Origin: Actinernus sp. WN-2022
Lineage: Eukaryota > Cnidaria > Anthozoa > Actiniaria > Actinernidae
Reading direction: 5' to 3'
Assembly (NCBI GenBank): GCA_030867875.1
Contig: JAOWCC010000041.1
Location: forward strand, 177,218-241,217
Length of the DNA stretch: 64,000 nt
Shown here: positions 31,472 through 56,688 of the stretch, in pieces
Layout of the letters: every line of letters begins with the position of its first letter
How positions within the stretch are numbered: the stretch's first letter is position 1
Notes under the pieces: generated by a model
Database searches by the model: none
The model's input: the letters and a program-made list of their open reading frames with translations, nothing else
What the model was told of the DNA's origin: nothing
Translations under genes and position numbers: made by a program

Positions 31472-31544
31472 ATGCAGGGAACACAGGTCTGTCTTACTGT
31501 TGTGCTCCTCATCCTAAGTTCAAATTTACACAAGGGAAACTCCG
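31472..31544 (+). CDS. WAP-FN3 secreted protein, exon 1 (signal peptide)
   Basis: The ATG at 31,472 opens 24 codons beginning MQGTQVCLTVVLLILSSN: a short polar start, a hydrophobic core and small residues, as in a classical secretion signal. The exon ends TCCG|GTAAAT, a good donor, in phase 1. All later junctions in the gene use the same phase. The acceptor-like TTTCAG three bases before the ATG suggests a non-coding leader exon upstream. With the exons below, this encodes an extracellular, multidomain protein. Confidence 0.75.
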
Positions 31545-32320
31545 GTAAATAATCACTTTCTTCGAAAAATTGAAAGACAAAAATATTAAGCAGCATTTGG
31601 GTGATCCAAGAGATGTTTTACGTCTAGTATAGATTCATATACAGCGTTTATGTTTTTAATTCGTTCATAATAACCTTGATACATTTCTATTTCAAACATC
31701 TCAAGCGTTAGTTGATGGAAAAGGCATCTCATTGGTAGTTATAATTGTCATTATGATTGTCAGAATTGATTATTACGCAAGGAGCAGTGTTTACATCTTA
31801 TAAGAGGTTGTAAAAGTTTAATGGCAATTAAAGTGGCTGAAAGAGTGGTCAACGTGTAGGTCAATATTCGGATAGACGCAGCCAGTTAGACTACCGTAAT
31901 TTACACTCTATTTGGAATTTCTAACCAGGTCAAAGACCTGACAGAAATGCAGAGTAGCACATGCAGTATATAAATTGAAATATTTAACAATTATTCACCT
32001 CAATGTCGGTGAGTAGTGGTGGATATTTACCTCGCCGCCTATACCACACATTAGTGAATAGCCAGCACCAAAAAGTTCTTTTATTTTCTGTCAGATGGAC
32101 AAAATCTCGCGCGAGGTGATCGCTGCTTCGCTCGGAGGTGAATATGAAATCATATTTACTGTTTGAGTAGCCAATCAGAGCGCGCGAAAAGTGATATTTA
32201 CTGGTGTGGTATATACTAAATATAGTTATAACAAAATATACACATGTATCATGACGTTTATCTCAATGATATCGGCCGACACATACAAGGAGTTTTCGAA
32301 ATCTATTATAACATCCACAG

Positions 32321-32461
32321 GAATCTGCCCAAGGTATCCACCAGCAGCAGAATGTCCCCCAGAACCAGACGATGAGTGCCACAGGGACGATGAGTGCGCA
32401 ATATTGCATCCAGGCAGAGGTTTAAAGTGTTGTTTGGAGGGATGTGATTTGATTTGTGTAT
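32321..32461 (+). CDS. WAP-FN3 secreted protein, exon 2 (WAP four-disulfide core)
   Basis: The acceptor CCACAG|GA joins phase 1 from exon 1. The 47 codons hold exactly eight cysteines in the WAP spacing: ICP, AEC, DEC, DEC, KCC, GC and IC. The donor is GTGTAT|GTAAGT. WAP domains (whey acidic protein, elafin, anosmin-1) are small disulfide-locked modules that often inhibit serine proteases or bind matrix partners. A WAP module placed before FN3 repeats is the arrangement of anosmin-1. The cysteine-rich box that precedes WAP in vertebrate anosmin was not seen. Confidence 0.9.
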
Positions 32462-32529
32462 GTAAGTATCGATTGAAACCATTTTATAGATCACACCTGT
32501 ATCGGTGGCCAACATAACGATGTCGTGAT

Positions 32530-33715
32530 GGGTGTAGTGTTCTGAGAATCTTCCGAGTAATCGAGACGAAGCGAGAGCGTAGGCTGATACGTGCCTTTAG
32601 TTGTGTTATGTAGGGAGCGCTGGATGCGTTCAGACGTTTCTAGTGAGGGAGTCCGTATCTGTATTAAGCGACATTGTTGTGTGTGGGGGGAGGGTGTGGG
32701 TGTGTGGTATGTGTACGTTTTCCGGGCTACGGGGTGGGGCCTTGCTCGGTCCGAGGTTTGTGTGGGCAGTCCACTGCGGCGTGACGCATTTTAATGGACC
32801 TTATGTATAAACACGGGCCACAAAGAGATGTTTCTCGAATACTCCTTCAACCCTTGTCACAGTTGTTGGACTGGAAGGCCCCATAATAGCGTACGGGGGT
32901 GACCTTCCTAGTGTTACACTAGCTCCGACGCTGACTGACTCGAGGTGTGGAATCTTGCGGATGACTCGAGCGTGTAGGTCGTCGAAGGCGTTGTACTCCA
33001 TTGTACTTGGCCGCGCTTTATCTTTTTCAGGATCGTCTTGTGACCGTATTTTTCATATTTTCTAGGTCTCCTAAGTGACGCAAGCGACCGGTTCGCTCAG
33101 GTTCTCGGATAAGCCCAGAAACAATTATTTCGAGCTCGCCAGTCATACGTTGCTGATAGGAACGTTCGGCAAATGTAAACTCTTGTGTGCTTGGCAAAGC
33201 ATTCAAGAGATCCTCATGAGGCCAGAAGACATAATGTGATACTAAAACGGATGCCTTGCGTGCCAGACCGCTCCTCAATTTCTTACCTGCGATTTTTGAA
33301 TCGGCTTTCTTTATTCTCGTCAATAATTTCTTATGATAAAATTATTCTTCAAGGGATTCGTCGCTGGACTCGCCTGGAATCGGTGCCTTCGTCCGAGAAT
33401 TCTTGGTTATGGAGTTCTAGTTTGGCGATCTGGCGATCAACCTTATGCTCTAGCGACTTGACAGCTCTGAGATCTGTGATAGTTGGGTCATGTTTCTTGG
33501 CGTGGGCCGTGTCGTTGCACTCAGGTTTTAACGAATTCTGAATGACTTTTAAGCCTTCTAGAGCGGTGATTATCCCCTCCAAAGTCACGTGAGGCTTTAG
33601 GAACTTTGCAGGCAGGACAAAGGGATTTTCTTACCTTGGTGAATGATCGGCCATCTTGGAAGGGCGTAATGTTCGATAATGTTCGAACACGTTCAATAAT
33701 GGAGGTGTACAATCA
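32530..33715 (-). pseudogene. Gag-like retroelement remnant in intron 2
   Basis: Two minus-strand frames, shifted relative to each other, give a coiled-coil-like region (TDLRAVKSLEHKVDRQIAKL at 33,349-33,588) followed by a basic segment and LVSHYVFWPHEDLLNALPST, QEFTFAERSYQQ (33,027-33,323). I recall similar proteins, a coiled coil then a basic region then a WPHE-type motif, as first ORFs of animal retroelements, but the family is uncertain. Frameshifts mark it as dead. The GC-richer DNA at 32,530-32,800 may be its downstream part. Confidence 0.45.
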
Positions 33716-33949
33716 TGAGCAGTGTTCAACCTAAGTCACCGAGCAATACGAAACCTATGCTAACCGGATGGAAGATCACGTTATGATATCACGTCTGATG
33801 ATAATTGACATTTATGTACAACTACATAATTAACCAAATTATCCATTACTCCTCGTTAACTTAGTAATATTTATTCTGCTCCTCCTTTTTCCTATTTAAA
33901 AAAATCATCTCTCAAGAAGTTAAAAACTTTCCACTGAACTATTTTTCAG

Positions 33950-34291
33950 TGCCGATCCCAGTTCCTCCAACAAGTTTTCCACAAAACATCAGCGTTATAA
34001 CTATTAACACTACATCGCTGCTCGTGAAGTGGACTCCGTTACCAAAAGTACACCAGAAGGAAGATTTCAAAGGGTACAAGGTGTCTGTAAAGAGAACAGG
34101 AGACCAAAAGAGACCAGAAAACCAGAAGACAGAAGGAGACAAAAAGGATACTCATCCCAAAGTTGTTAATAGTACAAGCATTGTGTTGAGTGACCTTTAC
34201 AAGTGCACCGATTACCTAGTGACGGTGCTTGCTTACAATCGCGATGGGGACGGGCCAATGTCCCCATCAGTCAGCTTCAAGACGAATAAAG
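33950..34291 (+). CDS. WAP-FN3 secreted protein, exon 3 (FN3 domain 1, type A)
   Basis: The exon is TTTTTCAG to AAAG|GTAGCG, 342 bases, phase 1 at both ends. It encodes one complete fibronectin type III domain: PPTSFPQNISVITINTTSLL, the B-strand Trp in VKWTPL, and the C-terminal YLVTVLAYNRDGDGPMS with the tyrosine-corner Tyr. A lysine- and glutamate-rich insert (KRPENQKTEGDKKD) lengthens the C-C' loop compared with exons 7 and 11, which are otherwise its closest relatives. FN3 modules act as spacers and binding surfaces in extracellular proteins. Confidence 0.93.
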
Positions 34292-34808
34292 GTAGCGTGT
34301 AGTATGAATACTACATTTATTGACTGACAATTATTTCACTAAAGTAAATCTAAGACCACGGCCAAAACTATTGGAACGGCCCCCTATTCCCCCATCTCAA
34401 TGTTGAGTAACCAAATGGTAAAGGAAAACGTTCGCATCTCACAACATTTAATATGAGTGAGGGGTTGTCACATGAGTCTCGGTGTTCATCTAGTTTTGTC
34501 CATTGTTGTAGCTTATTTAACCTGTTAGTTGGATAATACTGTAAAGAAAATAGAAAAGTCAAGTCATAACAATTTAATATGTTACACAGAACGTTTTTAA
34601 TTATTAGATTACTCGATTTAATCAAACGTAGAACTAGGGGATAGTAATTCGTAATAGCGTTTAATTTCAGACACGTTTAATTTCATACACAATCAATAAA
34701 GTGCTAGCTCATATCTAGATGACACAATGTGTGTGAGATGCAAGCAAGCCTAGGTAAGATTGTGTGTTAATTTAGGTCCTAACAAATTTATTTTTAACCT
34801 ATAATCAG

Positions 34809-35108
34809 ACATACCTGGTGTACCATCCATTACTAACAACGAAAAGGAGCAACCTGGATGCAGTATTCATTTGAAATGGAAGCAGCCTTACAACAACAAT
34901 TGCCCTGTCGATATGTACAGTATGTACTACAGATTGGTGCAGTCCAGTGAGAGAAGCAGTCCTTGGTTTGTAGTGAACACGACTCACAACAATTACGAGC
35001 TGTTGCTTCAGTGTGACAAGTTTTATGATTTCATGGTTCGTGCCTCTAATGCCAAGGGGATATCTGAAGTTAACTATTATAAGAAAAGAAGAATAAAAAC
35101 TGGCAAAG
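34809..35108 (+). CDS. WAP-FN3 secreted protein, exon 4 (FN3 domain 2, type B)
   Basis: The exon is AATCAG to AAAG|GTAGGC, 300 bases, phase 1-1. The FN3 domain contains three cysteines (GCSIHLKW, NNCPVDMY, LQCDKFYDF) at positions conserved in exon 8 but absent from the other FN3 exons. The core reads IHLKWKQPY, then YDFMVRASNAKGIS. Two of the three cysteines could bond; the partner of the third is unknown. The domain is shorter between strands than type A. Confidence 0.92.
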
Positions 35109-35437
35109 GTAGGCAGTCAAAATTATTTCACCCATCTTCAAGAAAGGAAACTGAAATAAGATCTTGAAAGACAAAATAGACAACAAGTAAAGCATAAGAA
35201 ACATTTATTTACTTACAAGGGTCTGTGATCAACTAACGTCTTTAAAACGGAACCATTAGCAACTAATATGTGGCGCCTTTCGGGGATGATTCAGCTGAAA
35301 ATGCTTAAACAAACATTCACTATCTTATGACCTTGCTGAACAATTTCGATCAAGTAGAGTCTTGATTATTTTGCCCACTGATCCAGGTCAATAAGATCGA
35401 CCCACTGATTCAGCCGCTTTTATATGTGGGGAAGAGT

Positions 35438-35478: not shown

Positions 35479-35634
35479 TAGTCGCTTCCCAAGGCGGTTA
35501 GCATACCTTAATCGACTTTTAGGTGATCAGAACAAAAGGCGTTTAAACTATGATTTGTTTGATGTCGAAAAATAAGTTATATTATTAGAAAAGCTGGCCG
35601 TAATCTGCCTGATACGCTTTTATTTCGACAACAG

Positions 35635-35985
35635 ATAAAGTGGGAAAGGGTAAAATCCTTTTACGCAAGACATCAACCACATCTAAAAGTATTGGCCTAA
35701 CTTGGGCTGTCCAGCAGCCAAATACGACGAACATGACGAAAGATGAGATCCTCACCAATAACTCTGTTAACTACACGGAGTCAAGACCTTTGTCATTCTA
35801 TCGTATTGACTATGAAACCACTGGCGGATTAAAGTGGAATAAAACATTCCAGGGTGATAGAGACGAGTTGACAGGTCTACAGCCGTATACCATATACCGT
35901 GTTGTGGTGACAGCCCTTGGTGACAAAACTGGTAATAAAAACATGCTTACATCACTGCCCGTCTTCCTTTACACAGATGAAGAAG
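35635..35985 (+). CDS. WAP-FN3 secreted protein, exon 5 (FN3 domain 3, type C)
   Basis: The exon is ACAACAG to GAAG|GTAAGA, 351 bases, phase 1-1. The frame shows the B-strand SIGLTWAVQQ and the tail LQPYTIYRVVVTALGDKTGN, both FN3 landmarks. A long, N-glycosylation-rich insert (NTTN, NNSVNYT) lies between them. The nearest relative in the gene is exon 9, which is shorter by 81 bases. It ends in the acidic TDEEG, a linker seen after several of these domains. Confidence 0.9.
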
Positions 35986-36218: not shown

Positions 36219-36527
36219 TTCCGAGTGTTCCTGTTCGTATCAAGTTACTAAAGAAGACATCGACAAGTATTCGTATTTCCTGGACTCTAATCGACGACAG
36301 GTCGTTCCAAGGAATTCCTGTTGGTTATGCTGTCCAATATAAAAAGGTTGAATCGCAAATGAATTCTGGTATATATCAGATGATCGAAATGTTTAGCAAA
36401 GAGGTGAATGAGACGCTAATAGAAGATCTGCATCCCTTTACGACATATATGATTGCAGTAGTTGGACGGACGGCGAAAGGCTTGGGCCCTAGCGGCCTAG
36501 AAATCAACGTTACGACAGACGAAGAAG
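36219..36527 (+). CDS. WAP-FN3 secreted protein, exon 6 (FN3 domain 4, type D)
   Basis: The exon is TGTGCAG to GAAG|GTGATT, 309 bases, phase 1-1. The reading is a canonical FN3: VPSVPVRIKLLKKTSTSIRI, SWTLIDD, then VGYAVQYKK and LHPFTTYMIAVVGRTAKGLG. It closes the first A-B-C-D block. Exon 10 is its closest match (VPSAPAHL, LKPFTKYSIEVCGFTKKGNG). The following intron is 6.5 kb and holds a complete but broken retroelement. Confidence 0.93.
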
Positions 36528-37660: not shown

Positions 37661-37753
37661 CCTACATTACAGTGTCACCTTTGCACTAATGGCCCTCATC
37701 AAGACCACTGTTTTATATAACTTGGCAGTAGGCAGACATGAATACGGAGAAGT

Positions 37754-38667
37754 TTAAGAAGCCAAACTAGAGACACGGATGTATTTTTGGAAGGCATTAG
37801 ACTTCCAACGCCCTAGAATTCTAATTTGTGCATCAGACATCCCCAGATCTGCAGCATGGGAGGCAGTTCCAATTCGAAAACTGTGTCCTTTGTAACGAGA
37901 GGGATCGAGTCCACAATGCTTAACATCCATAGAAAGCTGATCAGTGAAATTCACCCGATAAACTAGTGTGCCACCCACATCTACAAAAAGAGGACCAGGT
38001 GTTCTACCCCTCCTGGACAGATATTACAGGATTAGTTGGACCGGGCAAGAAACGGTCTGACGAGTTATTACTAACGAGAAGGGGCGTTGATTATAGTTAT
38101 GCTTGAAATCACGAAATGTGATTGTCAAAGCTGTAACTTCATTAGCTTGATTAAAAACTTTTGTCAGTTGATTAAGCTATAGAGGAGGAGTTGACACCTG
38201 CTGAGCTGTTGAAGTTAGTTCACCAACTCGTAGAAATGCAAAAAATGCCAGAGCACAAATAGCTTTAAATTGACATATTTGATATGGAGAACCAGCAAAT
38301 TGAGGTGCAGAGTTCACTAATCTAAATTTGGTAATCGGCTATCGAAACCTACACTTAGCTTTCCATAGCCTTTAAGCATTTGACTGATGTAAAATATTTT
38401 TGTGCGATCTGGGAAACCACCCAGCTTATGTGAGTAACCTAATGCAGAGATATAAGTATTCACCTTTGAAGGAGCGTAATGACGGTCAAACATGAAAGCT
38501 ATGAAAAGGCCCAATGTGGGTGATGCAATTGGTAATGTGAAAGCGAAAGAATTAGTTCTGAAAATGGTGTACAAGAACTCATTAAAGAGTCTCCATGCCC
38601 GCCTATAAGTTGGGATGGACGACGGTTGCAGGCTAGACTGCAACAACTTCGAAACTATAGCTGCCAA
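37754..38667 (-). pseudogene. Tyrosine recombinase of the DIRS/Ngaro-like element
   Basis: The N-terminal part (38,667-38,317) carries PTYRRAWRLFNEFLY, the SAM-like core-binding region. After a frameshift the catalytic half has FFAFLRVGEL (first Arg), KGHSFRIGTASHAA (His and second Arg) and LGRWKSNAFQKYIR (the Tyr nucleophile), so all four R-H-R-Y residues are present. The enzyme integrates circular element DNA in live copies without a target duplication. Only the frameshift between about 38,317 and 38,280 breaks it. Confidence 0.88.
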
Positions 38668-39024
38668 TTGCGGGGCTGCAGATGCTGGGGGATGTCTGTT
38701 GGATTGGAGTTCATGTGTGCTGGTGCCAGTAGTTTGAAGGCCTGCACCTGTCAGCGAGATAATGCCTCAGCCAAGGTATTCCGGATACGAGGAATGTGCT
38801 TTGCCTTAAAAACTATGTTATATTTCAAACAAACTAGCACCACATTACGGACGAGCAACATAAGAAATTTGTCCTTGCATGATTGCTTGTTGATGACATG
38901 TCAAGGGTCTCGTTATCCCTAAAAAAATACAACGATTCTTCAGGTTATGCATCAGTAAACAACTTGAGCTTTTCAGAACTGTACCAGGTATCATCAAGAA
39001 AAAATGTCTCCCATTCAAGTCAGA

Positions 39025-40369
39025 CTAAAAGGAAAGCCACACATTGAGGTCTTCTTTAACTTCCTTCTTGAGTCTAATGAAGTGGTATGGTGCCTGAATA
39101 CCTATTGTGAGGTCAATCAATCTAGGTAAAAATGCTCGACATGATACAATAACGGAACAAGCAAAATTTAACAAGCCTGTTAATGATTGAATCTCTTTTA
39201 GTGTAACATTTTTGGGGTGAAGAAATTCTGATAGGGCTTGAATGCATTTGTCAATCTTGTCACGAGGTAGGCGTGCTTCCAACGTGATTGAGTCAAGTTC
39301 GATGCCAGCAAATGAAAGTGTTGTGGAGGGGCCACATGTTTTTTTTCCTGTGCTATGGGAATGCCCAGATAGCTACATAAAGTTAGAAATATATCTAACT
39401 GGACCTGACAAAACTGAACAGTAGGAGCCACTATGAGAAAATCATCCAATAAATGTAGTATACTATTAATCTTGAATGCTTATCTGGGCAATCCATTCCA
39501 CTGCGGTTCTAAATGGTATAGTAGCAACTGTCTAGGTTATTACTAGTTTCGGATTACCTGTGTCCCGACCCATAAGCCTCATCGGGGCGGGCGAACACGA
39601 GGGTTCAGGATTCCGCGACAAGGTTGTACCTTTTCTTATTGGTCAACATTAATTGCAAGATTTATACCATCATTAAGTACTCTAAAGATTCATTTCAACT
39701 GTAAGTTACGGTCATGGAAATGAGAGGCAAGTAAAGTGTTGATTTAACTGTGGAAAAGCGTCTTCATTCAACCTCGTTCGTGATAACAAAAACAACTACG
39801 GCAAACATACGGCTACGGCGAACCCTCGCACGGCTACAGCGGTACTGAAGGTTTCGAATGTTTTACAAGCAGTGGAACATCCCATGGGCATACACCGATC
39901 ATAATAATATAGTCCCCGCCATTGGATATCCAGGAAATTGTAATCCTGAGCGAATCGGTATGATACGGAAGGCATTTTTAATGTCAGTTTTTGACAGAAA
40001 ACAGCCAGGGCCCTCAGACTTAATAAGGCCAATTGCATCGGCAATGTTACCATATGACACCCTGTTGTGATCAGAGGATATGCCATCATTAATCGATGAT
40101 CCTTTGGGAAAGGGTAAATGGTGGATCAACCGAAATTCGCCATGTGACTTCTTGGGAACAAGCCCGAGAGGAGAAACCCTGAGAACAGAGAAATGTGGGG
40201 ATTGGAAAGGACCAGCCATCCTATGAGCATCGAGTTCCTTTTTTAGCTTAGTATCAACTATCTCTGGGTGCTGTATTGCCGAAATTAAATTATTGGCTTT
40301 GAATGTGTGCCTAGGGCCCTCATATTGCAGACGAAAACCATTAGTAAAGCCAGAAGCCAGGAAATCCAC
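39025..40369 (-). pseudogene. Reverse transcriptase / RNase H of the DIRS/Ngaro-like element, interrupted
   Basis: The frame shows FSVLRVSPLGLVPKKSHGEF, FRLIHHLPFPKGSSIND and KTDIKNAFRIIPI (the first catalytic Asp), then MGCSTACKTFETFS. It is cut by a 336-base insertion (39,508-39,843) and resumes with HLLDDFLIVAPTVQF, which carries the catalytic DD. The connection region follows (IQSLTGLLNFACSVIVSCRA). GCGGT flanks the insertion on both sides. Besides the insertion, the frame is broken at several points downstream. Confidence 0.88.
39508..39843. mobile_element. 336-bp insertion in the RT gene, 5-bp target duplication GCGGT
   Basis: GCGGT stands at 39,503-39,507 and again at 39,839-39,843. 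Removing the insert with one GCGGT brings the two halves of the RT frame back into phase, so these are the exact ends. The insert has no terminal inverted repeat that I can see and no long frame. A GGTTCGCCG word near the minus-strand start recalls a Pol III B box, so a SINE is possible. Confidence 0.7.
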
Positions 40370-40372
40370 AGT

Positions 40373-41491
40373 TTACTGCTCATACCCAGACAAAAGAAAA
40401 AGAAAATGCTCAATTATTACGGGCGTTGGAAGGTCGTGACTTGCCAACCAGGGGAGGTTTGTTCGAAAATAGCTTTGAACCACGAAAATTACATTTTGTG
40501 ACTGGATGTGCACCATCACATTTGAAGCACGAATGCTTAAATTGGCAGCCAGAACAGGGCGAACCCCCATGGTACTTGTAACAATACCCCGGTGGAGAAG
40601 CAGGGCGTCCAAATCTGTTAGGGTTAGCATTGCCTGACTGCATGGGGCCCAGATTGTGGTTAAACTGGGGGCTACGATTCTGTGGATACTGAGACCGAAG
40701 CCACAGTTCAACATGTATATCTCACCAGGGTAAGGCACTGGCTTAAAAAAAACGAAAGTTATCATCATAAAAATGCCAATGTTGTCCCCTGATGGCCAAG
40801 TCCCTAATAATGTCACCATATTTCATGAGGGCTGGTTCCTCATTAGGATATTTGGAGGTGTAAACTCCGACAAAGATATGGAAGGCGGCCATCCAAACAT
40901 CAATTGTACTAATCTTTTTAGGCCTGCTGGATGGTTCTAGTGAGAGACATGGTGCATTGCCCCGTTCGGCGTTGCTAATACAAATCAGGATTTTTTTTTT
41001 ATCCAGCATAGGACTTCCCAGAAGAGAGCCAAAATCAGTGTAATCACCATTCCATATCTTTGCCTGGAGTTTAGATGAGATCCTGGCAATGTGCTCACCT
41101 GACATGGCAAAATGTGCAGCATCTACAGAGCCTTGTACAATAGATGCTGCAAATGTCCCTGGGTAATTGGCAAAGCCCCGAGGGGGACAACCGAAATAGC
41201 TATAGCTGCTGCATCAGCCTCTGGACTGATATAGGGAAGTGGCAGAGAAGCAGCACTTGTTGAGGTACCAGACGAATTGGTGACTGGCGGTGCAAGTCTC
41301 TTTGCCACTTCCTCCGTAACTGTGGAGACCAGGCGGTCGAAGAAGCCTGGAGGAAAGGAGAATGCTGGGGCTGAGGTGGGCGGCTGAAGCTCGACAACTG
41401 ATTCCACCGATGGAATAGTGGACTGTGCGGGTATTGATACTGGTTCGAGTGCTGGTGTAGCACACCGTACACTTCGAATAGGCCTTGCCAC
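40373..41491 (-). pseudogene. Gag-like protein of the DIRS/Ngaro-like element
   Basis: The N-terminal part (41,491-41,123) is rich in Ser, Pro and Val with PGFFDRLVSTVTEEVAKRLA. After a shift comes MSGEHIARISSKLQAKIWNG and TIDVWMAAFHIFVGVYTSKY (41,105-40,743). A further shifted segment has CYKYHGGSPCSGCQFKHSC and CFKCDGAHPVTKC (40,643-40,410), a zinc-knuckle-like cluster. It would package element RNA. At least two frameshifts separate the parts. Confidence 0.8.
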
Positions 41492-41719
41492 CAGTGCCTA
41501 TTTGGCCCTAACAGATAGGCGTTTCAGTCGTTGGGATCGCTAGGGAGGCATGCTGCAACACAAAAATTTCCGGAGAAGAGGCAGAAACATAGCCCACGAA
41601 TAACAATTGATGAACAATAGAGTGATTGTTGTTGGCAGAATAGAAGAAATAAGTGGCAGGTCCAAGCCATGGCAGACAATGTCTGCCGCACCAGCAAGTC
41701 CCTATGTGCCACAATAAAG

Positions 41720-41915
41720 AATAATTCGAGGTCCGTACCCTCTAGAGAACTAATTCTCCAAAACATAATAATTCGAGGATCGTACCCTCTGATCTGGAGA
41801 ACGAATTCCCCAATACATAATTCGAGGATCGTACCCTCTGGAGAACGAATTCCCCAATACAAAATAATTCGAGGATCGTACCCTCTGAAGAACGAATTCC
41901 CCAATACATAATATA
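41720..41915. repeat. Four tandem units of 46-49 bp between hydrolase and gag
   Basis: ATTCGAGGATCGTACCCTCT with GAGAACGAATTCCCCAATAC starts at 41,724, 41,771, 41,820 and 41,866. ATTCGAGG...CCTCT and GAACGAATTCCCC make each unit partly self-complementary. It may be part of the element's leader region. Confidence 0.85.
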
Positions 41916-41968
41916 ACACACATTAACGATCAATAAATGAATACAAATGAGATACAAATGAGGTTCCC

Positions 41969-42575
41969 CTATAGATATTGACCCGATTGAATCAGGTGAA
42001 CACCATCTTTTGACAGGAAACCTTGGGAAAGATCATTGATCTTTTTATGGGACCACCAGAAACCATTAGGCAGAGGCTCCAGCACAACATTAAAATAATG
42101 ATTTAGCGTGTCGGCGCGGGCATTGAAATTTGAGAAGAACGCATGGTCTTGGGGAGTGCCACGCGGGAGCTTCGCAAACGGCAATCACGCTAACTGAAAA
42201 TCGCTCTCGCATCAAGCAAACGAAATCCTCGATCGCGGAACCGACAGTCTCGGGCCTCGTAGCACCCGATAAATCGTTGGTGCCAATTTCTAAAATGATA
42301 ATATCGGGGGAAATGTGCGAGATCACACCAAGGTCATATTCCTCTAGTGTTGGAACAGTACGCCCTCCAACACCGAACATATGAACGTTCACTGTCCCAA
42401 GTAATTTAATATTACAGTCTGTGCGAGCATCAAAGCACGATTGCAAATTCTGTTGCAGCCGCTTTACAAAGGAATGGCCGAGAATAAGGACTGTTGGAAT
42501 GTTAATTGCCATGTTAATGTAGTATGAATGGTAGCGTGATAGCGTGCCGTAGGCGTACAAATAGGCGTGAATCAA
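41969..42575 (-). pseudogene. SGNH/GDSL hydrolase linked to the DIRS/Ngaro-like element
   Basis: Minus-strand motifs appear in family order: VLILGHSFVKRL (block I, catalytic Ser), GVGGRT (block II Gly), LEIGTNDLSG (block III, G.ND) and, after a frameshift near 42,130, FLSKDGVHLIQSGQY (block V, Asp..His). SGNH enzymes cleave esters on lipids or sugars. Some Ngaro-type and LINE elements carry such a domain for an unknown reason. Here it lies upstream of gag, separated by the small array. It could instead be the remnant of a different element. Confidence 0.82.
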
Positions 42576-43008
42576 AATGTCTCAATTAAGGATGAAACAT
42601 CGCGACAAAAATAAGATAAACTTAATCATAAAGTTGTATTGTCCCTCATATGAATAATGATACACAACAGGGGAGTGTGAAATAAACGAACAATTTTCTT
42701 ACCTTGTTATAATTATTTTCACACGTCCTCTCTCGATGAGAAATCAAAGAGAATGACTGACAAACAACCGCCAAATGTCATATGATCATTCTGTATCCCA
42801 TATAGGGTGGTCCATTATAATGACACTTGTAACCCCAAGGAGCCTACAATATGGCATTGTGTATGAAATACCAAGCATTTAATAATTAAAGTCAGAAGGA
42901 GGAAGGCATAAAATTCCTATTCGCAAGCAAATATTTTATTTCTCTATGTGGCTTTTGTACTTTCATGTCACGGTGCATGCACTAACAATTTCTGTTGTCA
43001 ATTTCAAG

Positions 43009-43299
43009 TGCCAAGTAAATCACCACAAGATATACGAGTAGCTGCTGTCACCCCCACATCGGTGTTCCTGAAATGGAATCAAGTACCACTTAGTCATCGA
43101 AATGGTAAAATTATCAAGTACGAGGTAGAATACAAGAAAACTGGCGAAAAAGAACCCAAGCTTAAAGTGGTACCAGCTAACACAATAGCTCTTGTACTGC
43201 GCAATCTCAGTCCGTGCACAGAGTATCAGGTCGATATTTTCGCTTTCACGTCTATAGGAAGAGGGCCGTCCGCATCTAAGAAGATAGTTACTTCTAAAG
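43009..43299 (+). CDS. WAP-FN3 secreted protein, exon 7 (FN3 domain 5, type A)
   Basis: The exon is ATTTCAAG to AAAG|GTAATA, 291 bases, phase 1-1; the acceptor ends AAG rather than the usual CAG. The frame VPSKSPQDIRVAAVTPTSVF, LKWNQVPLSHRNGKIIKYEV and LSPCTEYQVDIFAFTSIGRG is a standard FN3 domain. NGKI..Y after the Trp strand is shared with exon 11 and makes both the A type. It opens the second four-domain block. Confidence 0.93.
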
Positions 43300-46339: not shown

Positions 46340-46642
46340 CTCTTCCGAGCAGCCCATATGTAACCAACACTGAGCTTCAAGTGGACAAGTGTAAAATCAA
46401 GTTGAAATGGACCTATCCTAAAGGCACTGCATGTCCTATCACGAGTCAGACAATATACTACCGACAGGTTCACTCCATGATCAGTCATACAGATTGGTAT
46501 GTCGAAACAATACGAGATGCACATACAAGGCAGCAAGAACTGGTTCTGATGTGTAACTCGTTCTACGACTTTATGATGACTGCATCCAATGATGTGGGAG
46601 AGACGAAAAAGGACAAGAGAAAATTGCGAACAATTTTGATCG
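46340..46642 (+). CDS. WAP-FN3 secreted protein, exon 8 (FN3 domain 6, type B)
   Basis: The exon is TTTCCAG to ATCG|GTAATA, 303 bases, phase 1-1. KCKIKLKWTYPKGTACPITS and LMCNSFYDFMMTASNDVGET repeat the three cysteines and the FYDFM..ASN.. ending of exon 4, three bases shorter than this exon. The two are clearly paralogous, more similar to each other than to adjacent domains. The fold is FN3, with the B-strand Trp present. Confidence 0.92.
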
Positions 46643-47526
46643 GTAATACTTTTATTTGTTGAAATTTAGAAAAGTTTTGACATTTTGTATCTCATCGTTG
46701 TTGCCAAGCAAGAGCAAGAGATCCGATATCATTACGTCCGACTACGAGTACGGCGTTTACTATGGGTATGACCTTTAGAATCAAAATATCTCACTCGCAA
46801 GGAAAGTAGGGTGCTCTGTCAAACAATGCTAGAGAAACGAGAACTAGCTACCAAGAGTATTTCTTCATGTAACTTCTTAAAGTGGAACGTTGCACTCGTA
46901 CTCGATACAGTGACTCAACAGATGACCTTATAAATCAAATAAATGCCGTCATTCAATAGTAACATACCTTCAAACCAAATTATCATTTTTTAAATCTGCA
47001 TTATTTTTCATTCCTTAAAACTCGTGATAAACAGGATTTTTCATGAAGTACAATACAACCAAGACCCAACCTGTAATTGGTGAAATTAATATTTTCTCTT
47101 ACTTTCTTGGTGTATCGGCGTAAACTAAAACACAGTTAATGATGTTAGCAAGGACGGTTCAACCAACAATAGAACCAATCGTTAGCTTAATCCAATGGCT
47201 TCTAAACAAGCAATATTGAGAGCCAGGAGCAATTTTACTCTTATGCCTTAAGTCTGGAAATATTATCGGTACCATCGCTTGAAAGTAGATTTAGCGATCC
47301 CTACGGTCGCCGGAGAGTGCTGTTATTTGTGATCGCTACGATCGCTGAAGAGTGGTTTCCATATGACCGCTACCATTAAATATTACTTTCTCCGGGGGAT
47401 GGGAATCGGGCTTTAGCGATTTTCCTTGTAATCATTATCGGGAATAGTATGTTTGGATTATTAAAAGACATGAGGTTTTAAACAAAATCTTACGCGTATA
47501 AGGTTGTTGCTCTTAAATAGGTTCAG

Positions 47527-47796
47527 CATATACGGAAAGCGGAATGGTAAAGGCAACTATGAAGAGCTCGCAAAGTATTCTGGTAGAATGGAAGTCTCGC
47601 GAACTAGCTGGTGGGTACGAGATTATTTACAAAGATAGCACAAATACCTCCCGCAAGTTCGTCAACGGTTCTTCTTCTAGAAGGTACTTGCTAGAAGGAT
47701 TAAAAAAATTCACCGACTACGAAATCACAGTCATGTCAGTAAAAAGTGGCGGAAACGAACTGATTGGAGTTGATAGCAGCAAAACAGACGAAGACG
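47527..47796 (+). CDS. WAP-FN3 secreted protein, exon 9 (FN3 domain 7, type C)
   Basis: The acceptor is GGTTCAG at 47,526; the donor is GACG|GTGAGA. The exon is 270 bases, phase 1-1. The frame reads MVKATMKSSQSILVEWKSRE, then YEIIYKD and LKKFTDYEITVMSVKSGGNE. It is a compact FN3, missing the long insert of exon 5 but sharing the S.SI...W start and the acidic TDEDG end. Its poor acceptor context (a weak pyrimidine tract) could make it a skippable exon; skipping would keep frame. Confidence 0.85.
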
Positions 47797-48845: not shown

Positions 48846-49984
48846 AACGATGAGCCGAAGGATATAGAAGATATTCACGCAAAACATTAGGCCCACTACA
48901 TCGCTACTTTTATGCTTCAAGTTAGAAAACAAGACGGAGACGAAAACAAGCCTACAATGCTCAGATCTTTTATTTCCAGTTTTGATCGGTACCTTCGAAA
49001 CAATGACTATCCTACAACTATAATACAAGGAAAAGAGTTCAGAAAAACAAGAGATATTCTGGTGGCTCAGCAAAAAGAGCTAAAGAAGGAAGGGAAAGGA
49101 AATACACCAAACGCAGCTCGTAGTCTAACTGAAGAAGAGGTTGACGTTCTTTACAGTCACAATTAACTCGGTTGTTCCAGTTCAGAGTCCGTCGTCAACA
49201 CAGTATGGTTCAACAATACACATTACTTTGGACTAAGGGGCTGTCAAGAGCACATAGATATGAAATGGGGCGATATTGAGCAGAAAACGACAACAACCGC
49301 CGTTGAATACCTGGAATACATCGAAAGACAGACCAAGACCAGGCCCGGAGCTGATCCAGAGGTTTGTCGCAAAGTGAAGCCAGAACGTTTGCTGTCAAAG
49401 GCAGTGAAAGAGATCCTTTCATAGCTTATCTACTCTACGCTACTAAGAGGCCACATGACATGAAAACTCCGGAAGTCCTTTTTATTTGGCCATTAATCAC
49501 ACTAAAAATATAAAAAAAATTAAACCCTGGGTTAAGTCAGCTCCAATGGGTGTTAACAAACTAAACTTGCTCATGAAAATAATGGCAGGGAAAGCTGGAT
49601 TAAACACGGAAAACAACGATTCAGAAATTCAATGACGAGGGAATGCCTCCAACGCATATCATGCAAATCTCCGGTCGCAAGAATGTTCAGAGTTTGAATA
49701 ATTATAGCAGCTTCTCTGAAAGACAAAAGAGAAATATCTCGGATATTTTGAGCCACCCTGGGCCATCTTCGGGTTTTCAGACAAGCATTGCCAATACACG
49801 AGTACACGAGTCATCATTACGGCAGCCCTTGCTTCTTTTTCACGGTGCTTCTATTCAAGGAGGGACATTTAATATCTCCGTCAGTGCCTTAAAACAAAGT
49901 CCTACGTTGTCATTGCTGACTACTAGTTCTCCAAAGTCAACAAAGCCATGTTGTCGCTATGTGATTGAATCTGATAGTGACTGA
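48846..49984 (+). pseudogene. Crypton-type tyrosine recombinase (KIAA1958/DUF3504-like), decayed
   Basis: One reading gives FMLQVRKQDGDENKP, SFISSFDRYLRNNDYPTTII and ARSLTEEEVDVLYSHN (48,900-49,166), then YFGLRGCQEHIDMKWGDI, and finally MPPTHIMQISGRKNVQSLNN (49,643) with a GGTFNISV tail. These are the core-binding and catalytic segments of Crypton-derived recombinases such as KIAA1958, ZMYM and QRICH1 relatives; G.KNVQSLNNY carries the tyrosine. In that motif the usual His (GHK) reads GRK here. Stops and shifts interrupt it. It lies without introns inside intron 9. Confidence 0.8.
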
Positions 49985-50444: not shown

Positions 50445-50741
50445 TTCCCAGTGCACCAGCACATTTATCAGTTCTCAGGACGGAATCAAACACCATTTAT
50501 CTTCGTTGGAAGAAGATACAACATGAGTCTATCAATGGTATATTGTTAGGTCATCGCGTTTTCTTCAGGAAATCAAACTACTCTCGAGATCCTAATAACA
50601 TTACGACGGGACCTCAGTGGAGTGAAGCAATTCTGAGTAACCTCAAGCCATTTACAAAGTACTCCATAGAGGTATGTGGATTCACCAAGAAAGGAAATGG
50701 AAAAAGGAGTAAAGAACTTGTTGTACAAACAAGAGAAGGCG
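50445..50741 (+). CDS. WAP-FN3 secreted protein, exon 10 (FN3 domain 8, type D)
   Basis: The exon is TTTTTCTAG to GGCG|GTAAGT, 297 bases, phase 1-1. VPSAPAHLSVLRTESNTIYL, RWKKIQ, ILLGHRVFFRK and LKPFTKYSIEVCGFTKKGNG make a full FN3 domain, closest to exon 6. It completes the second A-B-C-D block. The next intron is 5.6 kb and holds a Gypsy element. Confidence 0.93.
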
Positions 50742-51239: not shown

Positions 51240-51642
51240 GTGAGTGGGTATAGTCACTTGTGAAGGCTTCTGGATTCGAAGGTATTACGTGATGTGATAG
51301 AACTGGTTCCTCTGTAGTTTCTGTTGTTTGTGGTTATATCAGGTTCCAGATAGATCCTTCAGCTGATCTATGTGTAACTTCCACATATTATCTTCGACCT
51401 GCACACGATAGGTAACTGGGCCAAGTGTCTTGATTCTTCCTAAAATCTGAAACCAGTACCGGGTCTCTCACACTGAACTCTCTTCTCGGTGCACTTCCCT
51501 TCCACTTTGTTAGCTTAGCTACTTTCTTCCTAAGGTCTGGACGTAATAAGTGTAGCCTGGAGCGCAGTCTGCGATTCATGAGTAACTCTGCAGGTGTACA
51601 TCCAGTTACTGTGTGTGGCGTGGTGCGATACTTATGCATCAA
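51240..51642 (-). pseudogene. Gypsy integrase C-terminal part
   Basis: LMHKYRTTPHTVTGCTPAEL then LLMNRRLRSRLHLLRPDL is the standard segment after the catalytic Glu of Gypsy integrases. It continues through REFSVRDPVLVSDFR into the region contacting target DNA. It is separated from its catalytic core by the 1.75-kb insertion. Confidence 0.85.
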
Positions 51643-52295
51643 TCAGCGGCTTCCCCCTGGGGCCGACCCCCGGGGACCCTGGGGGATTTGTCCAAACGCC
51701 CATTCAAACCTTATCTAATCCCCCTGGGTATGGGGCAGGAGATTGTTGACAAATTCCCTCCCTCTGGGGCAAATATAATGGGTCCCTGTAATATACGTTA
51801 ACAAATATCAGTTACATATCACCTATAGATCTTTGCAGTAGTAGCACACAAATGATGCCAGTTGCTCGCCCCTCTTCTTGCTAATCTTTACACAGGAGCC
51901 ATGGTACCAGATGAAGCAGCTGGGCCCTCGTTTGTCACACTGGATCATGAAACTATAGACGATCACAATGACCTTTTAATGTATATAATGTTACACGTTG
52001 ATGCAAAATGCAGTAATAGATATTTATGTTTTAAAAGACCATTTTCGGAGAGTTTTAATACCCTTCTTCTGGACCTCTACAAAACCACCACGTCTCATCA
52101 TCATCATGCTGCTCGTCTGGCACGGCAGTCTTGGCTCTTGCTTCTTTGTAAGGAATAGAAAAGAAATCAATCGACACTAGTGTTTTGAAAGACAACTGAA
52201 ATACTGTGTGATTGTTGTACAGACCTGCCATTTGAAATCTACTGAAATCTACAAAAGCCATATTCAAGTAAAGTACCTTGTCTTTTTCTTGTTTG

Positions 52296-53390
52296 CTATC
52301 GTTTTCCGGCTGCTTTGTTCGCACCTGCCTTACGTCGTTGTGTTATTACCTCCAAATGTTCTTTCCACATTTGTATACTATCAATATCTAGAAGATGTGT
52401 CTTCGCTAATTCTTCCACGTCATAGTTGTAGGCCTTGAATGCAGCCTCCAGAGCATCTTTCGGTGGTACTTTCATGTACATGCTGTTTCCTTGGTGTTTG
52501 CGATAATGTTCTAAATTATCATTAGGTTCCAAAAAATGCCCAGTACAGGTTCCAATGCATTTTGTGCATGGCCCATCCCATGGTTTAGTGACATCTGGAA
52601 TTGGGAGTGGTAAATAGGACAAAAGGGGACCACCTTCATACCAGCAAGGTTCTTCATCAGGCTTACAAGCTGAACACACACGATCAGGGCAGTCCTCCTT
52701 ATAACATAGTAGTAACTGAAACAAGTAATTACTTGTTAGTCCCTTGACCATATGCCGTTCTCGAAGACTCCATATCTCCTCAAAATGCTCATACAACTGT
52801 GGGTGACTCGTCCTTAATTGTTGTTTTGCCTTTTGTGATCCCTTTAGAAGTGTATCCAGATATGGCCGCCGTTCCTGGAGTTTTTTGGCAAAATCATCCT
52901 TACTTCCTTTGAACAGAATAATTTGTGATTCTCGAAAGGGTGTTCCATTACACTTATTAATGTATACGTCAGCAGCAGTTTGAAGATTTCTCTCAAGCTG
53001 TTCATAGTTAATACCACCATTAACATCAAAGTTTGACCCATGTATAGTTGATGGTATGAACATATTTGAGTGACCCATACTCAAGCAACCATTCTGTAAC
53101 TCGACTCGATTGAGATAAGAGGAACCATTGCATCTTGAACTGATTAGTGTGCAGACCTTTCCTAGTTCTAAGTGCCGTTCTGTTGCTAAGAACTGGACTT
53201 CGAGATGTGCAGGTCCCTCGTCACCAGCACCATCAACTCGAATGCAATCAATAAGGGTTTTGTCCATTCGGCATTCAAAGTCAGGCTTCGTTTGTAACAT
53301 ATATATATATCTGCCATATGCTGTGCGGGGTTTTGAGGATAAATCATCTGAGGCTTTTACCATCCCTGCTGACATTTGTGCTGATGTCAT
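52296..53390 (-). CDS. Unknown Cys-rich protein, open frame inserted in the Gypsy integrase
   Basis: The open frame starts at 53,465, but its first 25 residues (KIERPVRTFKQAMKEE) are Gypsy integrase; from about 53,390 the sequence is foreign. The remaining 364 residues have no stop. They contain DFECRMDKTLIDCIRVDGAG, HSNMFIPSTI, NKCNGTPFRESQIILFKGSK, then a cysteine cluster (CYKEDCPDRVCSACKP, CTKCIGTCTGHFLEP) suggestive of zinc binding. I do not know the family; I have a faint impression of similar uncharacterised cnidarian proteins. Its lack of decay inside a dead element suggests recent arrival. It could be a transposon ORF, perhaps with a missing N-terminus, or a retrocopy. Confidence 0.55.
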   Translation of the reverse strand: MTSAQMSAGMVKASDDLSSKPRTAYGRYIYMLQTKPDFECRMDKTLIDCIRVDGAGDEGPAHLEVQFLATERHLELGKVCTLISSRCNGSSYLNRVELQNGCLSMGHSNMFIPSTIHGSNFDVNGGINYEQLERNLQTAADVYINKCNGTPFRESQIILFKGSKDDFAKKLQERRPYLDTLLKGSQKAKQQLRTSHPQLYEHFEEIWSLRERHMVKGLTSNYLFQLLLCYKEDCPDRVCSACKPDEEPCWYEGGPLLSYLPLPIPDVTKPWDGPCTKCIGTCTGHFLEPNDNLEHYRKHQGNSMYMKVPPKDALEAAFKAYNYDVEELAKTHLLDIDSIQMWKEHLEVITQRRKAGANKAAGKR

Positions 53391-53882
53391 CTTCTCGGGA
53401 AGAGTATCTGATTCTTCTTTCATGGCTTGTTTGAAGGTTCTTACTGGCCGTTCTATTTTCACCAAGGATGGTATGGCGCACTGAGTATCTGCCTGATGTT
53501 GTTCGACTTCAGGAACCCATTAAACTCTTGTTGCTACAAATTGAGGGCCATTATCAGATACCAATTCTTCGGGCAGCCCATGTTTAGCAAACACCGAACG
53601 TAGGGCTTGTACTGTGGCTTCAGCAGTTGTAGAGGATATACCCAGCACGTCTAACCATTTGAACTTGGCATCGATAATAACTAGGAAAGACTCGCCGATA
53701 AATGGACCATAATAGTCAACATGTACTCTCTGCAAGGGGCGGTGTGGCCAGATACATGGGTTGTCCGAAGTTACAGCTGTTTTATCATTCATTGTTTGAC
53801 AGGTTTCACAGTCCCTCACCATCTGTTCAATTCCGCTGTCCAGTTTTGGCCACCATACGTGCAGCCTAGCTAATGTTTTCAT
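53391..53882 (-). pseudogene. Gypsy integrase zinc-binding and catalytic core
   Basis: RDCETCQTMNDK is the end of the HHCC zinc motif. HVDYYGPFIGESFLVIIDAK carries the first catalytic Asp, LVSDNGPQFVAT the second, and IERPVRTFKQAMK the Glu, so D-D-E is complete. The frame shifts between 53,520 and 53,465, and the C-terminus is displaced by an insertion. Confidence 0.87.
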
Positions 53883-53899
53883 CCTTACTAGTCTATGCC

Positions 53900-54755
53900 A
53901 AGATGATTGAAGTATAGCTCATGTTTCATGATGTTTCTTTGGGATTACTACTCGTGTACCTTCAGCACGCATCCGTCTTCCACTGTGAGTTCATTTGTTT
54001 TTATGTAATACATCTCCAGGTTAGCCGGAAATTCCTATTTATAAGGCCATCCTTGAAGAGGGAAGTGCACTACCCTGGACAGTACTGGGTCGCGAGCTGT
54101 ATCATCTCGAAGATGTCTGGCATTTACTGGCACTCTAGCTACTTCGACCTAGTTTACCTCTTCCGCTTCTTCTTCCCAAAAGCTTGTGTTTTCAGTGGCT
54201 TTACGTGGTAGCCTGTTAAATGCATCGGCACTAGTATTCTGCTTGTATGCGCGGTACTTAATATCAAACTGGTATGCGGAGAGCTGTATTGTCCATCTTT
54301 GTAGTCATGATGCAGCTAAGGGTGATATCCCTTTCCTGGTACAAAACAGGAACGTTAGAGACTGGTGGTCCGTCAACAACGTGAATCTACGGCCATACAG
54401 GAACTGCTGGAACTTACAAAGATAATTGCCAGTGCTTCTTTATCAATGACTTAGTAATTATTGTCTGCGTTGGTTAATGATCGTGAGTCATAAGCAATTG
54501 GACGTTCATTCCCCTCGGCAGTGATATGTGATATCATCGCTCCCAGTCCCACTGGTGATACGTCTGTGCTAACTGCACTTTCAACTTGGGGTTATAGTGA
54601 ACTAACACTCTGGATGGGGCCAGAGTGTCTTTTAGTTTTTGAAACGAATCTGTACGCTCTTGACTCCAACACCACTTTGTACCCTTTGTTAGTAGCTGGT
54701 TTAGTGGACTAACCAAGATGGACATATTCGGAATGAACTTCCTTATGACTCCACG
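53900..54755 (-). pseudogene. Gypsy RT thumb and RNase H
   Basis: SPLNQLLTKGTKWCWSQERT with FQKLKDTLA (54,534-54,725) is the RT-to-RNase H connection. From about 54,425 the minus strand reads FLYGRRFTLLTDHQSLTFLF and YQFDIKYRAYKQNTSADAFN, the usual RNase H and post-RNase H segment, with scattered stops between. Confidence 0.8.
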
Positions 54756-55147
54756 CTATACAAGAGAAAAAGAAGCTGGTCGTGATTTCTCTGTCACAGC
54801 TGGAACAAATTACCTGTAAGCCTAAGACTCTCCGCCTCTGTCAATATTCTTACGTCTGCCCTTTACAAGCATTTTCGCACCTTTCAAAAAAGCTTCGAAC
54901 AGTTCACTACATTTTTAGATACACAATTTATCCTTAGTTAACTTGGTAATGTTGATCCTTCTTAATGTATACATTTATATATCTTGTAAATATGTAATTT
55001 TAGCTTAACTTAGTATAGTCTTATTATATGTCCTTATCGTAATATGTCTTTCATGTGTTGTCCTGCGAGGGCCACGAGTTTATTAGTGCTTTGTACTATT
55101 TAGTGTTACCCTCTTGAAATAAAGTTGATTGATTGACTGATTGATTG
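54756..55147 (+). mobile_element. LINE 3' end with TGAT-type tail, inserted in the Gypsy RT
   Basis: The Gypsy frame stops at about 55,148 (FLGLVNYY) and resumes at about 54,755 (IRKFIPNMS). The insert ends AATAAAGTTGATTGATTGAC plus TGATTGATTG, a polyadenylation-like signal with a short microsatellite tail, as in CR1/L2-type LINEs. Its first part still resembles the last codons of a LINE RT. The copy is about 390 bases, strongly 5' truncated. Confidence 0.7.
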
Positions 55148-56150
55148 GTAATAGTTCACTAATCCTAGAAATGACAGAAGCTCAGTTTTTTTCTGCGGCT
55201 CACGTACTTCCAGTATAGCTTGCACCTTCTTTGGAGATAGATGGATTCCATGGTGGTCAACTACAAAGGCAAAATACTCCACTTGAAGCTGCATAACGAC
55301 ACATTTTGACTTCTGGAATTTGACTTCAGACAAATCAAATTTCCTGAATGTCTGATGTAAGTTCTCAACATGTTGTTCGTTATATACTCCTGTGATGATC
55401 AAATAATCTAGTATCCCACCAGCATGACTTACACCATCCAGCATCTTGTCTATGATCTGTTGGAAAATGGCCGGTGCAGCTGCAACTGCAAATGGGAGTC
55501 AGTATACCGGTTCAACCCTAAGTGGGTGGTTGTGGTAATAATAGAGATTTCTAGTACTACCTGTTGGTAGGCGTTAAGTAGATCTAATTTAGTTAATAGC
55601 TGTCCCTCATTAACTTTGGTAAACAGTTCCTCCGGTGTAAGCATTGTTACTCGTGTACAACTAGGTATGGATTTAAAGTTACCTTAAAATCTCCACAAAT
55701 CCTAACTGTCCCATCAGGCTTCAGCAACGGGTATAATAGGTGTAGCCCTATCTGAACTCTCTACTTTCTTCAATACCCTGTCTTTTTGTAATCTTTGCAG
55801 CTCTGCTGCGACCTTTTCTTTCAGAGCATAAGGTACTGGACGGGGCTTGAAATACTTTACTTTGAACTTAGCAGTAACCCCTTTGATGGTATATCATTTA
55901 CCATCGAACAGTCATATCTGTGTTGGGTACTGTTGAATCACATCTTCTAACTTGGGTGTAGGCTGGTTTGTCTGGTGAACTTTGCTAAGTTCTTTCCAGT
56001 CCAATTTGATTTTGGAAAGCCAATTCTTCCCCATCAGGATGTTCCATCAATGCTGACAATCACAGGTAGATCTGCTTCTTGGGAATGATACTGAACATGA
56101 ACTGTGATTTCTCCAAAATTTCCAACATTTCCATTACTTCACGCCGTGAG
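55148..56150 (-). pseudogene. Gypsy protease end and reverse transcriptase
   Basis: From the right, the minus strand shows NWLSKIKLDWKEL (protease end), then FKPRPVPYALKEKVAAELQR and ATPIIPV (RT start, about 55,720-55,870). TKLDLLNAYQQVVLE (about 55,575) carries the first catalytic Asp, and DYLIITGVYNEQHVENLHQT follows, where the usual YIDD box reads LDYLI. ILEVREPQKKTELLSFLGLV precedes the break. Stops and shifts occur throughout, and the palm motif is mutated, so the enzyme is dead. Confidence 0.83.
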
Positions 56151-56394
56151 GGTACCTGAAGGCTTTTCCTACGTTCGATCGTCAATTTCGAATATGGCGT
56201 CACCGATGTCCTAGATTTTCTTGATTTACTTGTTTCCCTTCGACGTTTTATTAAGCATTGCAAATAATGAAAGAATCAAACATGATTCATCTTCATAGAA
56301 AGCCTTAAGTTTATTTTAAGGTCGACGAAGCTTTTTTTTTATAAATAGGCATACTAGTTCCGATAAACATTAACACTGCCATTCTTCTCTGTAG

Positions 56395-56688
56395 TTCCCA
56401 GCATGGCTCCACAGGGTTTGAATGTGACTGTATTGAATTCTACAAGTTTGTACATTGAGTGGCATCCAGTCCCCGTGGGATATCGTAATGGAAAGATATT
56501 AACTTACATCGTGTACAACAGAGGCGAACAGTCACTAACAACCGTTCCTAACAATGGTTCAACAACTATACACACTACTTTGAGAAATTTAAGGCCGTAC
56601 GTCACTTACAACATAAGCATCGCTGCCAAGACCAGGGCAGGAAAAGGTATCAAATCACTGGGAGTCATTGCACGAACAACGGAAGACG
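56395..56688 (+). CDS. WAP-FN3 secreted protein, exon 11 (FN3 domain 9, type A), last exon seen
   Basis: The exon is TCTGTAG to GACG|GTAAGT, 294 bases, phase 1-1. VPSMAPQGLNVTVLNSTSLY, IEWHPVPVGYRNGKILTYIV and LRPYVTYNISIAAKTRAGKG form a canonical FN3 domain with YRNGKI shared with exon 7, so it is type A and begins a third block. The donor is strong and no stop is reached, so the gene must continue past the Polinton-like insertion, beyond the window. The transmembrane segment or tail, if any, is not visible. Confidence 0.92.

Follow-up and report, generated by a model that had tools for sequence, protein, structure and literature searches.

The window, i.e. the whole stretch of DNA analysed here, comprises 64,000 nucleotides of contig JAOWCC010000041.1 from the actiniarian Actinernus sp. 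WN-2022 (assembly GCA_030867875.1, positions 177,218 to 241,217 of the forward strand), and carries the first eleven exons of a gene for a protein with a WAP domain followed by FN3 domains. Joined, these exons (31472-56688) encode 992 residues with no stop codon; in an exon-by-exon check exons 2 to 11 had AG acceptors and all exons had GT donors. A first-pass annotation of this DNA had described a signal peptide, a WAP domain and nine FN3 domains, and the splice sites, the phases and the stop-free join agree with that description at each position. Its statement that all eleven exons are of class 1-1 holds for exons 2 to 11 but not for exon 1, which carries the start codon and exits in phase 1. 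The exons are listed below with bit scores from a Pfam scan of exons 2 to 11 (fn3 cut-off 25 bits), the signal peptide having been read by eye; types A to D, the paired branch supports and the ratios of replacement to silent change (dN/dS) are taken up in later sections.

31472-31544, forward: exon 1, start codon and signal peptide of 24 residues (hydrophobic core by eye), GT donor
32321-32461, forward: exon 2, WAP four-disulfide core with eight cysteines, class 1-1, fast-evolving (PF00095 23.8 bits, cut-off 20.8; pooled dN/dS 3.2)
33950-34291, forward: exon 3, FN3-1, type A, fast-evolving (fn3 55.4 bits; pooled dN/dS 4.4; exon 3 and exon 7 sequences group 86/78)
34809-35108, forward: exon 4, FN3-2, type B, three cysteines (fn3 24.7 bits, slightly below cut-off; with exon 8 100/100)
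35635-35985, forward: exon 5, FN3-3, type C (fn3 24.1 bits, slightly below cut-off; with exon 9 77/91)
36219-36527, forward: exon 6, FN3-4, type D (fn3 38.1 bits; paired with exon 10, the D group not being rejected)
43009-43299, forward: exon 7, FN3-5, type A, opening the second block (fn3 56.1 bits)
46340-46642, forward: exon 8, FN3-6, type B, three cysteines (assigned by similarity to exon 4; protein identical in all five close copies)
47521-47796, forward: exon 9, FN3-7, type C (fn3 35.8 bits)
50445-50741, forward: exon 10, FN3-8, type D (fn3 45.3 bits)
56395-56688, forward: exon 11, FN3-9, A-like, the final exon found for the gene on the contig (fn3 53.7 bits; 98% identical on C635)

Six of the nine FN3 exons (3, 6, 7, 9, 10 and 11) scored above the fn3 cut-off; exon 8 had no fn3 match in Pfam, matching a DSCAM-type FN3 model below its cut-off. 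The gene is cut by the contig end after exon 11.

Continuation into a receptor kinase

The rest of the gene was read on a close copy in the same assembly, C635, in which exons 7 to 11 are 96-100% identical to those of the window, exon 3 is 86% and the WAP exon 74% identical. Three further FN3 exons (FN3-10 to FN3-12), a transmembrane exon and kinase exons lie in frame at C635:18111458-18136177, and a composite of window exons 1 to 11 with C635 exons 12 onward runs from exon 1 to the fifth kinase exon (K5) for 1726 residues with no stops, all junctions being AG/GT and in phase. C635 exons 12 to 15 also have counterparts, 48-66% identical and arranged in the same order, in a paralogue. The transmembrane exon (phase 1 in, phase 2 out) links FN3-12 exactly to kinase exon K1 (phase 2), and encodes a single transmembrane-like segment followed by a basic stop-transfer sequence (hydropathy scan and reading by eye). 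The kinase exons contain, in order, the P-loop and VAVK lysine; alpha-C and the hinge; an insert; HRDLAARN, DFG and APE; and the first part of the C-lobe. The insert exon encodes 195 residues, mostly insert, between the two kinase halves, the catalytic motifs (GQGAFG, VAVK, HRDLAARN, DFG and APE) are intact, and Pfam identified the domain as PF07714 (220 bits). Judged by its transmembrane segment and catalytic motifs the encoded protein is a receptor tyrosine kinase, for which kinase activity is predicted. We consider it highly probable (about 0.9) that the window exons encode the N-terminal portion of a receptor tyrosine kinase of type I that belongs to a multigene family.

The family was surveyed in the assembly with queries made from the exons. 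Exons 7 to 10 detected cassettes on C1128 (two), C1254 (two), C635, C1312 and C1706. Twelve loci are diverged, ten on C1312 and two on C1706; exons 7 to 10 are in order in 11 of them and exons 3 to 6 in ten (exon 1-6 query), the exceptions being C1312:82.2 Mb, with no exon 3 match, and C1312:83.56 Mb, with exons 3 and 4 only. A total of 17 cassettes was counted, including the window's own, cut by the contig end; the candidates scored were 106 of 774, 85 of 567 (exon 1-6 query) and 150 of 216, so that locus counts are lower bounds. A kinase query of 77 residues, the first five being translated intron, gave 18 matches at 79-100% identity, the next best match being 62% identical. All 16 detected cassettes that are not cut by a contig end have a family kinase downstream on the same strand (∼18-72 kb past exon 10, where exon 10 was found), and 16 of the 18 kinase matches are paired with a cassette. 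The two other family kinase exons, at C635:17930960 and C1312:82881763, had no detected cassette upstream. Some of the close copies may be alleles, because copies B and T are identical in the WAP exon and nearly so in exon 3.

These data also bear on whether two adjacent genes could be present i.e. one for a secreted WAP-FN3 protein and, downstream, one for a separate receptor kinase. Such an arrangement would suit the distance of up to ∼72 kb between exon 10 and the kinase in some paralogues, and the one-gene join is a reading of genome sequence, not of transcripts. However, all of the phases match from exon 1 to K5 with no stops, the transmembrane exon joins FN3-12 to K1 exactly in phase, and cassette and kinase lie on one strand in 16 of 16 pairings, which makes two genes very unlikely.

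The first-pass annotation had taken the gene for an anosmin-like one i.e. a secreted relative of anosmin-1 in which the FN3 block was duplicated and a third copy started. Anosmin-1 is described, in the part of the source available to us, as a secreted protein with a cysteine-rich region, a WAP domain, four FN3 domains and a histidine-rich end (PMC3580776). The window gene shares with Anosmin-1 (ANOS1) a signal peptide, a WAP domain and FN3 domains in the same order, the FN3 exons here forming two A-B-C-D blocks, and a Pocillopora receptor kinase (P0145) has a weak match to the anosmin cysteine box (13.7 bits against a cut-off of 29). Unlike Anosmin-1, it has no cysteine box (reading the intron between exons 1 and 2 in three frames revealed no cysteine-rich exon), and it has nine FN3 domains in the window and twelve in the composite instead of the anosmin-type four (three in C. 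elegans KAL-1), with none of FN3-10 to FN3-12 being B-type; on the C635 copy a membrane anchor and a kinase follow in phase. Of the features of anosmin-1 we thus found the WAP domain, but not the cysteine-rich region, the set of four FN3 domains or the secreted histidine-rich end. No protein named anosmin occurred among the best 120 of 139 homologues, and exons 1 to 6 alone gave no match at E <= 10 among 7429 candidates, which is a weak test as the search needs shared short words. The anosmin reading did not survive these comparisons, and we regard it as scarcely credible.

Three further observations concern the anosmin comparison. The search with all 992 residues returned generic FN3 proteins only, among the best 120 of 139 matches, and is potentially misleading; the best match was a Montipora ‘PTPRQ-like’ protein, which scored 581 bits across many repeats at 26% identity. 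The model PF17869 had no match in the genome, but none in any control either. P0145 has a cysteine-rich N-terminus before its FN3 domains, for which the anosmin cysteine box is the sole listed Pfam match (below cut-off), while the cysteine-rich N-terminus of a Nematostella receptor kinase (P0162) had no anosmin cysteine box match. An old link between anosmin-type ectodomains and cnidarian receptor kinases is possible.

Duplication of a four-domain FN3 block

The nine FN3 exons of the window had been sorted by eye into types A (exons 3, 7 and 11), B (4 and 8), C (5 and 9) and D (6 and 10), and our analysis bears this sorting out. The mean shuffle Z for domain similarity was 13.4 at an offset of four domains, compared with 3.5-8.8 at other offsets. 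The A/B/C/D sorting was the best of the 1260 ways of dividing nine domains as 3+2+2+2, and was reached by 288 of 362,880 orderings i.e. its symmetry class. A tree of the nine domains reproduced the four groups without exception (supports: A 63/75, B 100/99, C 71/59, D 57/75), so that positions four apart group together, and none of 200 label shuffles did as well. We relied on a tree with paralogues included, because paralogues shorten the branches, though its support is modest and long-branch warnings remain; here B (100/100) and C (77/91) were again recovered, and A and D were not single groups in the free tree, yet were not rejected (p 0.393 for a single A clade of exons 3, 7 and 11). The duplication of a four-exon block, which had been proposed from the first reading, is thus upheld for two A-B-C-D blocks: FN3-1 to FN3-4 and FN3-5 to FN3-8 would be the products of one four-exon duplication older than the spread of the family.

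It had also been proposed that exon 11 begins a third block and that the next exon would be B-type. Exon 11 is nearest to exon 7 (40% identity), and the single A clade that was not rejected includes it. However, in the tree with paralogues exons 3 and 7 group without exon 11 (86/78), a cysteine before the T.Y motif occurs in nine of nine exon 3 and exon 7 sequences but in neither of the two exon 11 sequences, and no B-like exon was seen in the fetched C635 stretch beyond exon 10, where the predicted B-type exon should have appeared and where FN3-10 to FN3-12 were found instead. A third block that began at exon 11 and whose B, C and D exons were later lost or diverged is therefore unlikely.

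A probably exchangeable, fast-changing tip

Using the exon 1-6 query, WAP exons were found upstream of all five close copies and of no other cassette; the absence from other cassettes rests on this query, which detected the five close copies and other WAP loci with 85 of 567 candidates scored, since a genome-wide search of the WAP family omitted the window's own WAP and is hence no proof of absence in the paralogues. In two of three C1312 paralogues read 3 kb upstream of exon 3, a TSP1 exon of class 1-1 occupies the position of the WAP exon (PF00090, 28.5 and 21.7 bits, cut-off 21.6); the third, at 71.73 Mb, had neither WAP nor TSP1 within 3 kb of exon 3. A search with TSP1 returned the query's own copy alone, and is one that more divergent TSP1 exons would escape. 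The twelve FN3 domains were followed on the WAP-bearing C635 copy, and the TSP1 paralogues were checked for exons 3 to 10. The simplest reading is that the tip has been replaced by exon shuffling, because class 1-1 exons can be swapped without breaking the frame. WAP exons 54-73% identical to that of the window also occur at C790:6.28-6.30 Mb, C235:24660317 and C1312:178473414, and are a possible source of the tip exon.

We compared replacement and silent changes among the five close copies, which differ by 1.0-2.9% over 12-13 kb aligned around exons 7 to 10 (mostly intron with the exons included, some bases being counted twice where neighbouring loci overlap, and gaps being ignored). In the WAP exon (47 codons) the pooled dN/dS was 3.2 (ten pairs from five copies, two of which are identical in WAP), with up to 19.8 replacement against 1.2 silent changes, and in exon 3 (FN3-1) it was 4.4 (six pairs from the four copies other than copy U), with up to 18 against none. 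Pooled values were 0.50 for exon 7, 0.96 for exon 9, 1.13 for exon 10 (few changes) and 0.32 for exon 11 (one pair), and exon 8 (FN3-6) showed no replacement change in ten pairs. Between the window and C635, which differ at 294 of 12282 aligned bases around exons 7 to 10, replacement and silent changes stood at 34.8:2.2 in exons 2 and 3 and 13:8 in exons 7 to 11 (Fisher p 0.0028, rounded counts). Relative to the surroundings of exons 7 to 10 in the same pair, and with site numbers that are rounded estimates, the replacement rate was higher in exons 2 and 3 (p 5e-11) and was lower in exons 7 to 11 (p 0.006), and the silent sites of exons 2 and 3 (∼2/106) did not differ (p 1.0). All five copies keep the eight WAP cysteines. 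The distal tip, i.e. the WAP domain and FN3-1, seems from these counts to be under diversifying selection, for which they are strong though not conclusive evidence.

The excess of replacements could instead have arisen through gene conversion involving other WAP genes, or because surplus copies are decaying. A stop codon interrupts exon 10 of copy U, similar WAP exons exist elsewhere (C235, C790 and C1312:178 Mb), tandem copies are able to exchange sequence, and the silent difference in WAP exceeds the 1-3% around exons 7 to 10 in some pairs (up to 0.083, few changes). However, decay predicts a ratio near 1 rather than 3-4, the eight WAP cysteines are intact throughout, the silent sites of WAP and FN3-1 do not differ from the surroundings of exons 7 to 10 between the window and C635, and the ratio also exceeds 1 in pairs without copy U (window-C635, 16.8:2.2 in WAP and 18:0 in FN3-1). 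We consider this explanation rather unlikely.

Relation to other receptors and proposed function

A search of solved structures placed an EGFR entry first, with two kinase copies, followed by FGFR, CSF1R, RET and VEGFR entries. In a tree of 28 kinases the window family grouped (89/89) with cnidarian orphan receptor kinases and one metagenome protein, a Ret-like sequence adjoined that group (89/80), and the wider group (98/96) took in FGFR-like, VEGFR, FLT3 and Ret-like sequences. Together with the insert exon, the 98/96 group places the kinase among the RET/FGFR/VEGFR-like split kinases. RET, FGFR, VEGFR, CSF1R and FLT3 differ from the window family in their ectodomains, which are of the cadherin or immunoglobulin type and not WAP or TSP1 on twelve FN3 domains. 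Receptor kinases with FN3 domains include the ROS/Sevenless, Tie, insulin and Eph receptors; ROS-like, insulin-type and Eph sequences fell outside the 98/96 group, and a Tie-like sequence fell inside it without adjoining the window-family kinase. We know of no WAP or TSP1 tip on any of these four.

The cnidarian orphan kinases from Pocillopora (P0145, P0154 and P0187), Oculina (P0148) and Nematostella (LOC5507990, P0162) are 51-58% identical in the kinase (13-14% of the query); like the window family they have a kinase insert, and P0145, P0148 and P0162 have FN3 domains. Their outer parts differ, being a cysteine-rich N-terminus and FN3 in P0145 and P0162, CUB in P0154 and Ly6/uPAR with a C-type lectin in P0187. 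No WAP accession occurred in the Pfam lists of the best 120 of 736 kinase homologues, and to our knowledge a WAP tip has not been described on any receptor tyrosine kinase; a full-text literature search gave none in titles or the starts of abstracts, a result that does not establish absence. Within the searches made, no other ectodomain was found that sets WAP or TSP1 on twelve FN3 domains with an internal four-domain duplication. UMODL1/olfactorin likewise combines WAP and FN3 in one extracellular protein but has EMI, EGF, SEA and ZP domains, and the accessible part of its description mentions no kinase domain (PMC8874799). Shuffling of ectodomains on conserved kinases is reported as a general pattern across animals in the portion of PMC8662651 at hand, with which the WAP/TSP1 tip family is consistent; a term search of its main text did not find WAP.

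The protein would then consist of a signal peptide, a WAP domain and twelve FN3 domains, followed by a single transmembrane helix and by a tyrosine kinase whose halves are separated by a long insert; its family has about 17 loci in the assembly. The long FN3 stalk may bear a replaceable recognition tip; ligand bound at the tip would cluster the receptors, and the clustered kinases would phosphorylate one another as well as tyrosines in the insert and in the tail. Diversification of the tip could be a response to a partner that changes or is polymorphic, such as a pathogen or prey protease or an adjacent cell, with the output of the kinase kept constant. We tentatively propose, as a possibility that falls short of being probable, a cnidarian recognition system of tandem and dispersed receptor kinases, in which an exchangeable WAP/TSP1 tip is mounted on a constant kinase and stalk of twelve FN3 domains, the tip and first FN3 domain being under strong diversifying selection. 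Receptor kinases are chiefly known for conserved roles in development, and a multigene family whose members keep stalk and kinase constant but carry a swapped, rapidly evolving tip looks more like a repertoire for immunity or recognition. If the proposal is true, such receptors could discriminate pathogens, prey or non-self tissue via one shared kinase output, and the family would offer a testable case of exon shuffling that alters the specificity of receptors and leaves their signalling machinery unchanged.

Several points weigh against the proposal, the receptor reading beneath it or the block duplication. Recognition of a changing partner is something that we only infer. Because the contig ends within the window copy, the kinase of that copy is read from the other copies, and no transcript joins the exons. 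In the 48 kb of C635 that was fetched the kinase could be followed to WSFGVVLWEIMTM, and its C-lobe past WSFGVVLWEI was not found. The TSP1 exons are assigned to exon 3 by position, not by demonstrated splicing. The dN/dS values come from simple counting over non-independent pairs (copies B and T being identical in WAP) with few silent changes, exons 4 to 6 lying outside the test. Trees with distant outgroups alone broke up A and C and did not settle the order, and in a tree including FN3-10 to FN3-12 neither A nor D held together, and FN3-10 was placed next to B (86/78). Copy U (C1254:353378-356674), with its stop in exon 10, is probably a broken copy or an assembly error, and TAG occurs in two of the 18 kinase matches (that of copy U and C1312:82027740), maybe as intron at the match edge. 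The kinase match of copy U that contains the TAG lies at C1254:316211.

Mobile elements interrupt and follow the gene in the window:

37754-42581, reverse: mobile-element-like open reading frames in intron 6, a tyrosine-recombinase retroelement by eye (no Pfam match in the two pieces scanned)
49167-49424: DUF3504 match in intron 9 (36.3 bits), probably another mobile element
51388-55683, reverse: Gypsy-like retroelement by eye in intron 10, in which 53520-53918 matches an integrase zinc finger above cut-off and an integrase core slightly below cut-off
57920-63026: Polinton-like element at the contig end, with open reading frames for a viral-type DNA polymerase B (forward; PF03175, 42.7 bits) and an integrase core (reverse; PF00665, 40.9 bits)

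Elsewhere in the assembly, C1312:151.21-151.36 Mb holds a different FN3 gene array, with many closely spaced FN3 exons that share ∼31-40% identity with the query, in most cases with exon 10.

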